A stretch of DNA of 64,000 bases, from NCBI GenBank assembly GCA_015711795.1, contig JACVJC010000008.1:1-64000 (forward strand), written 5' to 3'. Shown here one piece after another: positions 4,678 to 7,458 of this stretch. A program made the translations under genes and the position numbers. The notes beneath the pieces are model-generated. The model worked only from the letters and a program-made list of their open reading frames with translations. It was not told the origin of the DNA and ran no database searches. Every line of letters starts with the position of its first letter. The first letter of the stretch is position 1. The stretch comes from Candidatus Geothermocultor quzhuomuensis. Lineage in GTDB: Bacteria; Actinomycetota; Aquicultoria; Geothermocultorales; Geothermocultoraceae.

Positions 4678-4812
4678 TTAAGGAGCTAGTTTTTTTCTTC
4701 CTTTTCTTCGACGATTAGCTAAAACTTTTTGGCCTCCTTTTTCTTTCTTTCGCACTAGGAAGCCGTGGGTTCTTTTTCTTCTTCCCACCTTGGGTTGATA
4801 AGTGCGTTTCAC
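4678..4812 (-). CDS. rpmH: 50S ribosomal protein L34 (44 aa, GTG start)
   Basis: Manual reverse-strand translation [44 protein letters not shown]; absent from ORF track because too short. Confidence 0.95.
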
Positions 4813-5126
4813 ATTTCCTCCTCAATTAGAAAGTTTATTATAATCGGCAGCTGTGCTAGGGTCAAGTACAGCAACTCCTTAGGAGTTAAGAGAATAAAAA
4901 AGTTTTTAAATTTATTTCAAATTTCTATTGAAGGCGTGGGGTGGCTTTGTTATAATAATTCTTGCCTTCCGCAGAGAGCAAAAATTCCTATTAATCAGGT
5001 ATTTTGCTTCATAAAAATTTATGCTTGATTGCAAAGGGGGAAGATCTCACCTAGATTCGTTGCCTTAAAAATGATTACTAATGAACCGAGTATGTCAAGT
5101 CAAAATAGAAGAGCTTTTCAATCCTT

Positions 5127-5155
5127 TCCACAATTGTGGATAGGGGTGTGGATAA
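5127..5155. promoter_or_regulatory. DnaA-box cluster in rpmH-HATPase intergenic region (probable part of oriC)
   Basis: tccacaattgtggataggggtgtggataa: 14-bp palindrome TCCACAATTGTGGA, near-match box TGTGGATAG and exact reverse box TGTGGATAA. Confidence 0.75.
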
Positions 5156-5257
5156 TTTCGTAAAGTGCCTAATAAATCTGTATCAAAAACTTTCTTAAAA
5201 AAATTAGAAGAGGCGATTTTTTAAGGATTCTAGGTTTTTAGGTTCTGTGAGTAATCT

Positions 5258-6076
5258 GTGGAAAAAAGGATCTATGCGGAAAGGGAAGAAATGGGAATTC
5301 TCCTAAGATTTTTAGAAGAAAGTGGCTTTAAAGAGCCCTCTTTTGACTTAGAAAAAGAAGCTCCCCCAGTCAGATTAGCTCTTTACGATATCCTTACAGC
5401 CCCACCTCAAATTATCGATATCTCTGCCCCAAACTACTTAGAGTTAACTAGCCTATTAACCACAAAAACATATCAATTTTCCCAAGAAAAAGGGGGCAAC
5501 ATTCCATTTTCAGCTATTAAGGAGACTGTGGAAAACTTAATTCACGCTAATTTTAAAGCAGCAACCATCTCCGTCTTAAACAATGGAAACACCATCCGCG
5601 TAACTGATCAAGGGCCAGGAATAAAAGATAAAGAAAAAGCTTTTGAAGTTGGCTTTACCACAGCGACCCCTGAAATGAGAAAAATTATTAAAGGAATTGG
5701 CCACGGTTTGCCTCTAGCCAAAGAGATTTTAGCCTCTATTGGCGGAGAGATTACAATCGATGATAACTTAGGTAAAGGCACTGTTGTTACTCTCTCTGCC
5801 CCTGAAAAGAGCCAAGAGCTGATAAAAAGAGATAGCTTCCCTAAAAAAATAATTCAAAATGAGCGCCAAAAAAAGGTTCTCCTTCTCATCGCGGAACTTG
5901 GCCAAGCCGGACCTTCAAGAATAGCCACTGAACTAGATATTAGCTTGAGCACCGCTTACCGCGACCTCTTCCTACTTGAAAGCGCAGGTTTTCTAAAAAT
6001 CGATTCCCAAGGAAAAAGAGGACTAACCGAAATTGGCTTAAATTATCTTGAAACAATAATGCTGGAGGGACTTTGA
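5258..6076 (+). CDS. GHKL-type ATPase domain fused to C-terminal winged-helix DNA-binding domain, immediately upstream of dnaA
   Basis: N-box ETVENLIHANF, G1 DQGPGI, G2 GIGHGLPLAKEIL; C-terminal HTH RQKKVLLLIAELGQAGPSRIATELDISLSTAYRDLFLLESAGFL; no HisKA phospho-acceptor domain. Confidence 0.85.
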   Translation: MEKRIYAEREEMGILLRFLEESGFKEPSFDLEKEAPPVRLALYDILTAPPQIIDISAPNYLELTSLLTTKTYQFSQEKGGNIPFSAIKETVENLIHANFKAATISVLNNGNTIRVTDQGPGIKDKEKAFEVGFTTATPEMRKIIKGIGHGLPLAKEILASIGGEITIDDNLGKGTVVTLSAPEKSQELIKRDSFPKKIIQNERQKKVLLLIAELGQAGPSRIATELDISLSTAYRDLFLLESAGFLKIDSQGKRGLTEIGLNYLETIMLEGL

Positions 6077-7458
6077 TGCAAGAAAAGCTAGATGACATTT
6101 GGCATCAAACTCTTAAGCTTGTTAAGGAAGAGCTTAAAGTGCCCACTTTTAAAACCATGTTTGAGAGCACTTCACCAGTGACTATTTACAATGGTACTCT
6201 AATAGTTGCTGCCCCCAATGCTTTTATAAAAGAATGGCTTGAAACACGCCATGCCCCAATGCTAACCAGGGTTCTCTCTAAGGTAATGGGAGATAATATT
6301 TCAATTAAATTTATATTAAAAGAAGAGGAAGAAATAGAGGGAAAGATAGAACAGGTTAGCAAGGAGGTATCAAGTTTGGCTAAAGGGAGCATTTCTTATC
6401 CTCCTCTACCTTCAGATGCTCTTTCTCCTTTAAACCCAAAGTATACCTTTGATTCATTTGTTGTTGGGAATAGCAACCGCTTTGCTCATGCTGCTTCACT
6501 AGCAGTAGCTGAAAAACCTTTCACTTCTTATAACCCTCTCTTCATTTATGGAGGGGTAGGACTAGGAAAAACACACCTTTTACAAGCGATTGCCCATTAC
6601 ACCTTAAAACATCATAAAAAGTTAAAGGCCAAGTATGTGACATCGGAGAAATTTACTAATGATTTTATTAACGCTGTTAGAGATAAAACAATTCCTGGTT
6701 TTCAAAAAAAATACAGAGAAAATGATATCTTGCTTATTGATGATATTCAGTTCCTTGCAGGTAAGGAGCAAACCCAAGAAGAATTTTTCCACACTTTCAA
6801 TACTCTCTTTGAAGCAGGAAAACAAATTGTTATTTCAAGCGATCGTCCTCCCAAAGATATTTCCCCTTTGGAAGACCGTATGAGATCTCGCTTTGAGTGG
6901 GGCTTAATTGTTGATATTCAACCTCCCGATTTAGAAACAAGGATAGCTATTTTAAAAAAGAAAGCAAAAACAGAAAATTTAAGCATTCCTAATGATGTTC
7001 TTGAATTCATTGCTACTAGAATTAAGTCTAATATTAGGGAACTTGAAGGTGCTTTAATCAGAGTTATTGCTTTCGCTTCTTTACACCGAGAAAAAATTAC
7101 TTACTCTCTTGCTCAGGAAGTTTTAAAAGGAATTTTCCCTGAATCTGAGTCAAAACCTATTAGTATTCAGCTTATTCAAAATGAAACCGCTCGCTACTTC
7201 AATATTAAGAAAGCTGATTTAGTTGGAAGTAAGAGAAATCAATCAATTGTCTATCCTCGTCAAATTGCTATGTATTTAACCCGAGAGTTAACTGATTTAT
7301 CTCTTCCTAAAATCGGTGAAGAATTTGGTGGTCGGGACCATACAACAGTTCTCCACGCTCATGCAAAGATTGAAAGGTTAATAAAAGCTCAAGAAGAAGT
7401 CTTTAGTCAAATCCAAGAGTTAACCAATATAATTAAGCAAAAGAGTTTAAATATATAA
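6076..7458 (+). CDS. dnaA: Chromosomal replication initiator protein DnaA
   Basis: YGGVGLGKTHLLQAIAHY, LLIDDIQFLAGKEQTQEEFFHTFN, GGRDHTTVLHA; ATG overlaps stop of preceding gene. Confidence 0.98.
   Translation: MQEKLDDIWHQTLKLVKEELKVPTFKTMFESTSPVTIYNGTLIVAAPNAFIKEWLETRHAPMLTRVLSKVMGDNISIKFILKEEEEIEGKIEQVSKEVSSLAKGSISYPPLPSDALSPLNPKYTFDSFVVGNSNRFAHAASLAVAEKPFTSYNPLFIYGGVGLGKTHLLQAIAHYTLKHHKKLKAKYVTSEKFTNDFINAVRDKTIPGFQKKYRENDILLIDDIQFLAGKEQTQEEFFHTFNTLFEAGKQIVISSDRPPKDISPLEDRMRSRFEWGLIVDIQPPDLETRIAILKKKAKTENLSIPNDVLEFIATRIKSNIRELEGALIRVIAFASLHREKITYSLAQEVLKGIFPESESKPISIQLIQNETARYFNIKKADLVGSKRNQSIVYPRQIAMYLTRELTDLSLPKIGEEFGGRDHTTVLHAHAKIERLIKAQEEVFSQIQELTNIIKQKSLNI

Follow-up and report, generated by a model that had tools for sequence, protein, structure and literature searches.

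A dnaA-linked GHKL ATPase with a C-terminal winged helix at a probable replication origin in Actinomycetota

Introduction

What does a protein with ATP- and DNA-binding signatures do when its gene lies between the DnaA boxes of a probable replication origin and dnaA itself? The question is raised by an open reading frame (positions 5258-6076, plus strand) ahead of dnaA in a 64,000-nucleotide stretch of contig JACVJC010000008.1 from Candidatus Geothermocultor quzhuomuensis, referred to here in its entirety as the window. The coupling of bacterial replication initiation to energy state is an open question, and known regulators of dnaA vary from lineage to lineage. An initial annotation had described the reading frame, its domains, its overlap with dnaA and its position at the origin, all of which stood up to the analysis reported here, together with a GTG start codon that did not.

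Results

Gene and start codon

5291..6076, plus strand: probable coding sequence of the GHKL ATPase and winged-helix protein (open reading frame, Pfam domains, Shine-Dalgarno sequence AAAGGG, ortholog alignment)
5257..5265, minus strand: perfect DnaA box, TGTGGAAAA / TTTTCCACA, about 26 bp upstream of the probable start ATG 5291

The GTG at 5258, originally taken as a start lying within a DnaA-box-like sequence, was rejected because it lacks a Shine-Dalgarno sequence and the closest orthologs align from ATG 5291; a start at the GTG would add 11 poorly conserved codons. ATG 5291 is in frame and has a Shine-Dalgarno-like AAAGGG six bases upstream, and the alignment with the closest relatives (L005-L007) begins at its methionine (MGILLRFLEE vs MKNFLQKLLEE, query residue ~14 onward). 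Given this spacing and alignment, ATG 5291 is probably the true start, which would place the TGTGGAAAA box, real in itself, just upstream of the gene and outside its coding sequence.

Domain content and conservation

5504..5554, plus strand: N-box, residues 83-99; E89, N93 and H96 invariant in 95/95 aligned orthologs
5606..5623, plus strand: G1 box, DxGPGI; D117, G119 and G121 invariant in the ortholog alignment
5693..5710, plus strand: G2 box, GxGxGL; G146, G148 and G150 invariant in the ortholog alignment
5858..6070, plus strand: C-terminal winged helix-turn-helix, residues 201-271 (Pfam, AlphaFold, conservation)

The Pfam model HATPase_c (PF02518) matched residues 86-184 of the window protein above its curated cut-off (E=9e-14) and was found in 54/54 aligned orthologs. 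HTH_11/IclR-type winged-helix matches span residues ~202-255; across the family the matching models were HTH_11, IclR, TrmB and HVO_A0261_N, and a winged-helix match was retained in the orthologs scanned, forms with a long linker included. An AlphaFold model built from the ortholog alignment was confident (mean pLDDT 87) and had two domains: a beta hairpin at the N-terminus leads into a Bergerat-type core, which a flexible linker connects to a winged helix spanning 202-271 (helices 202-214, 219-226 and 230-242; wing 246-256). Pfam, alignment, model and Foldseek agree on a Bergerat fold that carries N, G1 and G2 boxes and on membership in the GHKL superfamily, and a tri-helical core, wing and recognition-helix signature (Pfam, AlphaFold) identify the C-terminal domain as a winged helix. 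The recognition helix (~230-242) carries STAYRDL and the wing carries GKR at 252-254; both motifs are conserved in most lineages, with R235 of the recognition helix kept in 87/95 orthologs and GKR in 76-84/95. The box residues listed above and G163 are invariant over all 95 orthologs.

By column entropy, the N-box and G1 box vary least; values stay low over the recognition helix and rise only in the N-terminal part and the linker. Close pairs gave dN/dS of 0.06-0.26, and the gene is under purifying selection. With boxes invariant across 54-95 orthologs and dN/dS in this range, the observation goes beyond chance. The N-box has the spacing E-x3-N-x2-[H/D]-A, with a catalytic Glu as in MutL/GyrB. 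GHKL proteins use the invariant N-box Glu as their general base in hydrolyzing ATP or in phosphotransfer, and because E89 occupies this position, the domain is predicted to be an active ATPase rather than a dead one.

Two side observations concern variation within the family. Long open frames (about 370-510 aa) occur at L064, L069, L071, L072, L075, L079, L091 and L094-L096; in Coriobacteriia-type orthologs the extra length is mostly linker between the ATPase domain and the winged helix, and in L069 and L091 it is N-terminal to the ATPase domain. At L061, L074 and L087, STAYRDL is replaced (e.g., by WTIGRCGRQL) and the ATPase boxes are retained, which suggests that the DNA target of these three proteins may have changed or been lost.

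Consistent with the initial report of ATP-binding boxes and a winged helix without a histidine phospho-acceptor domain, Pfam detected no HisKA/DHp domain in the window protein or in the 54 aligned orthologs, so the family lacks the hallmark of sensor histidine kinases; H96 of the N-box is the sole His that is invariant over the 95 orthologs. These results bear on the reading of the gene as a decayed or split sensor histidine kinase or anti-sigma-type kinase, with its response regulator or sigma factor encoded elsewhere. The G1/G2 region is indeed most similar to histidine-kinase ATPase domains, but a phospho-acceptor domain is missing throughout, no receiver or sigma gene is linked, both domains are under strong constraint, and kinases of that kind have no winged helix. 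We consider such an origin very improbable, and an anti-sigma or two-component reading was rejected on domain content.

Linkage to dnaA

6074..6078, plus strand: TGATG, stop of the GHKL gene (TGA 6074-6076) overlapping the dnaA start (ATG 6076-6078)
6076..7458, plus strand: dnaA (open reading frame; used as probe)
4681..4812, minus strand: rpmH, divergent left neighbor, the same neighbor as in most ortholog loci

The overlap of the two genes, as first described, is present at 6074-6078. From many Actinomycetota families, 98 ortholog loci were fetched, of which 95 remained after removal of 3 duplicates. The gene lies directly upstream of dnaA on the same strand at 93/95 distinct loci: in 86, dnaA follows immediately on one stretch, and in seven more the contig stops 7-109 bases past the gene and the opposite contig end opens with dnaA, so that the same junction runs across the start of the record. 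The contigs of the remaining two loci (L025 and L045) end before dnaA could appear. Homologs away from dnaA would have spoken against a role there, and none was seen among the 95 loci. Nor was a second linked gene found that might point to a known partner, such as an anti-sigma system; the neighbors are only rpmH and dnaA. The usual order is rpmH (divergent), a DnaA-box region, the GHKL-winged-helix gene and dnaA.

The estimated gap to dnaA has a median of 17 bp and is at most 60 bp in 70/89 loci. Taking the first dnaA start codon brings most of the larger estimates down, and apparent long gaps mostly reflect a variable DnaA N-terminus. This spacing lends good support to the proposed cotranscription with dnaA, and the GHKL-winged-helix gene opens the dnaA operon as its first cistron, between the DnaA-box array and dnaA. 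Each genome holds a single ortholog, weaker matches being ordinary histidine kinases. The trees of the GHKL-winged-helix protein and DnaA have 41/64 splits in common (mean of 0.1 with shuffled labels), and 33/38 well-supported splits of the former occur in the DnaA tree; because the trees share these splits, we conclude that the gene is vertically co-inherited with dnaA. Adjacency at 93/95 loci together with this congruence is the pattern looked for in a regulator of dnaA or oriC.

Origin region and operator search

5124..5155, strand not assigned: triple DnaA-box array, TTTCCACA-N2-TGTGGATAG-N3-TGTGGATAA (upstream-region word counts)
5124..5132, plus strand; 5135..5143, minus strand; 5147..5155, minus strand: boxes of the array, spelled also TTTTCCACA-N2-TGTGGAAAG-N3-TGTGGATAA
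7478..7486, minus strand: perfect DnaA box between dnaA and dnaN, marking a second flank of the probable origin
4928..4956, plus strand: promoter-like TTGAAG-N17-TATAAT with extended -10, facing the GHKL-dnaA unit (consensus match only)

The gene had been described as embedded in the origin, and we agree that it sits there because the GC skew changes sign around 5-7.5 kb and DnaA-box density across the whole window peaks in 5-6 kb. Among 84 non-redundant upstream regions, TCCACA-N2-TGTGGA occurs in 37 and TCCACA-N14-TGTGGA in 35, with about 0 expected, and the geometry of the array (an inverted pair 2 bp apart and a third box 12 bp on) is fixed over much of the phylum. The triple array also precedes dnaA in genomes without the GHKL-winged-helix gene; it is therefore DnaA's own site, serving autoregulation and/or the origin, and not evidence for the winged helix. 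DnaA-trio arrays beside the triple box were not above shuffled levels, and the number of promoter-like sites in the region is close to the shuffled expectation. As a separate observation, a perfect DnaA box at 5527-5535, inside the gene, falls on the N-box codons T-V-E-N and is probably forced by coding.

K-mer and dyad enrichment over the 84 upstream regions revealed no operator distinct from DnaA boxes; once the DnaA boxes were masked, these regions yielded promoter-like words only and no conserved palindrome. The palindrome TTGTTAATAACT, found in 15/84 loci (~0.75 expected), was considered as an operator and rejected since it forms tandems with DnaA-like boxes and genomes that lack the gene also carry a TGTTGATAAC version; it is treated here as a DnaA-box variant. 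In family f5 (L008, L009, L011, L013, L015, L018, L021, L022, L024 and L026), a second conserved element, TTGTTRATAACtcgGGGGATAAtTT, was noted ~30-60 bp before the start codon; its TTGTTAATAACT part forms a palindrome, which at times recurs next to a DnaA box near rpmH.

The negative operator search counts in favor of the main rival to an ATP-gated DNA-binding regulator, namely that DnaA is regulated by protein contact or phosphorylation, as SpoIIAB/RsbW act on their target or SirA, YabA and Hda on DnaA. The GHKL domain would then bind or phosphorylate DnaA or another initiation factor, and the winged helix would serve only as an origin anchor or protein interface. A stoichiometric partner would account for the strict co-occurrence and the translational coupling with dnaA, the invariance of E89 implies that the GHKL domain is capable of catalysis, and the DNA-binding signature of the winged helix is weak in some lineages. 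Most lineages, however, conserve the recognition helix (STAYRDL) and wing (GKR) in canonical form, the HATPase_c_2 signature of anti-sigma kinases is found in just 3/54 members, and separation from dnaA is never seen; a partner acting in trans would be free to move. On balance we regard this alternative as unlikely, with perhaps one chance in five.

Distribution

The ortholog searches behind the counts covered Actinomycetota. A contig scan with the window protein alone found only two close relatives; within its own class 30/36 genomes have the gene, and so do 158/397 genomes sampled across the phylum. A profile search found it in 111/120 genomes of the class of G351 and in 0/197 genomes of the class of G056 (large-genome actinobacteria). 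We take G351 to be Eggerthella lenta, G395 Lancefieldella (Atopobium) parvula and G060 Cryptobacterium curtum, all Coriobacteriia, and G056, with a 9.2-Mb genome, looks like a member of a Streptomyces-type class. Presumably, the chromosome record of E. lenta has the ortholog as its first gene. Genetic tools for E. lenta, namely shuttle vectors and gene deletion, have been reported (PMC9734109).

Among the genomes of the gene's own class that lack it are G007, G028 and G030 (loci L111, L103 and L105); these three are small (1.2-1.3 Mb), the rpmH-dnaA distance is ~380-460 bp, and the absence is clean, with nothing in the gene's place. Given these absences and the 0/197 in the class of G056, the GHKL-winged-helix gene is not universally needed. 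No full-length relative was found in plasmids, phages or viral contigs, and on that ground a mobile or phage origin was rejected. The only plasmid or phage matches (including L100/L101) cover the ATPase part alone, residues ~61-182, and are mostly histidine kinases or "ATP-binding proteins" of Rhizobium plasmids.

Clean loss in some genomes and the lack of a conserved operator at the gene's own locus would also fit a transcription factor whose targets have nothing to do with replication, such as a regulator that responds to energy charge and has a genome-wide regulon. Its place beside dnaA could be a matter of history, an ancient insertion kept since disruption of the dnaA transcription unit is costly. 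Against this, the gene is never found away from dnaA at 95 loci in many families, and the clean losses show that its position is not physically locked; we think this explanation improbable, at somewhat under one chance in five.

Discussion

The best explanation of these results, to which we assign a probability of roughly 0.5, is that the gene encodes an ATP-gated DNA-binding regulator that acts in cis on the dnaA operon and/or oriC. In this model, a soluble GHKL ATPase would bind ATP and hydrolyze it with E89 as general base, and its nucleotide state would alter the dimerization or orientation of the C-terminal winged helices. These may bind DNA between rpmH and dnaA, next to the DnaA-box array, and so repress or permit transcription of the gene itself and dnaA, and/or DnaA loading, while translational coupling would tie the dose of the GHKL protein to that of DnaA. 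Domain content, invariant residues, linkage and co-inheritance with dnaA, spacing and purifying selection are what we observe; that the protein binds and hydrolyzes ATP, that it binds DNA and at which target, the direction in which it regulates and a direct contact with DnaA, if there is one, are what we infer. With neither unlinked homologs nor a known partner seen, the proposal of a regulator of replication initiation or dnaA transcription thus stands as the leading reading. Weighing against it, besides the negative operator search, are the array in genomes lacking the gene, the absences of the gene itself, and the weakly conserved recognition helix in L061, L074 and L087.

A further and tentative possibility, which we consider somewhat doubtful, is that the family represents an uncharacterized, ancient class of initiation control in which a DNA-binding GHKL ATPase reads the cell's ATP/ADP state and thereby gates, in cis, the expression of dnaA or the firing of the origin. 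If true, such control would be near universal in Coriobacteriia (Eggerthella, Cryptobacterium and Atopobium-type gut and oral bacteria) and also in several deep classes of actinobacteria, whereas the Streptomyces/Mycobacterium lineage would have lost it or never had it. With its strict dnaA linkage and its ATP- and DNA-binding signatures, conserved over a large part of the phylum, common human gut bacteria included, the gene is a good candidate for an overlooked switch in the timing of chromosome copying, and it offers one concrete gene and one promoter/origin fragment for study.

Comparison with known systems

The initial annotation recognized no characterized system in this protein, and we likewise found no literature description or family model: the open-access PMC literature, weak evidence of absence in itself, yielded no account of a dnaA operon that contains a GHKL/winged-helix gene, and no Pfam or NCBIfam model names the dnaA-linked family. 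The Foldseek search suggested at that stage gave PDB 3lmm as the best match (E=7e-8, 262-275 aligned columns, 16% identity; TM-score 0.45-0.48, 14-15 A rmsd). 3lmm is DIP2311 of Corynebacterium diphtheriae, which belongs to the AlbA_2/Schlafen - HATPase_c_4 - winged-helix group (COG2865). In both proteins an ATPase-like domain precedes a winged helix, and the agreement is confined to the order and fold of these last two domains. Given the low TM-score and high rmsd, however, their domain arrangement differs, and DIP2311 is longer (477-556 residues modeled). Neither AlbA_2 nor HATPase_c_4 was matched in the window protein or in the 54 orthologs, which sets the family outside COG2865. DIP2311 itself is described as of unknown function (PMC8780604).

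By sequence, the best PDB matches were the sensor histidine kinases WalK/YycG (3sl2) and sporulation kinase B (3d36), with which the family shares a Bergerat fold and N, G1 and G2 boxes. Unlike these kinases, it has no dimerization/phospho-acceptor domain, sensor or membrane part, and it has a C-terminal winged helix and a Glu N-box with MutL-like spacing. MutL/GyrB share the N-box E-x3-N-x2-[D/H]-A and the catalytic Glu, and MutL matches, though weak, recurred over residues 82-132; in contrast to MutL/GyrB, the family lacks a transducer domain, its G2 region is more histidine-kinase-like, and it is fused to a winged helix with no repair or topoisomerase context. SpoIIAB and RsbW are small cytoplasmic GHKL proteins with an N-box catalytic Glu, and the family is likewise small and Glu-bearing. 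The match to TIGR01925 was weak (E=2e-5, 24 bits vs a cut-off of 135), RsbW-type HATPase_c_2 reached E<=0.01 in too few members (the 3/54 noted above) to place the family with RsbW/SpoIIAB, and, unlike SpoIIAB/RsbW, the family has no linked sigma or anti-anti-sigma gene and has an extra winged helix. Among known dnaA/oriC regulators (SirA, YabA, Soj, Hda, SeqA, CtrA and MtrA), we know of none that combines a GHKL ATPase with a winged helix and none that always stands first in the dnaA operon across classes; what the family has in common with them is a candidate role at dnaA/oriC.
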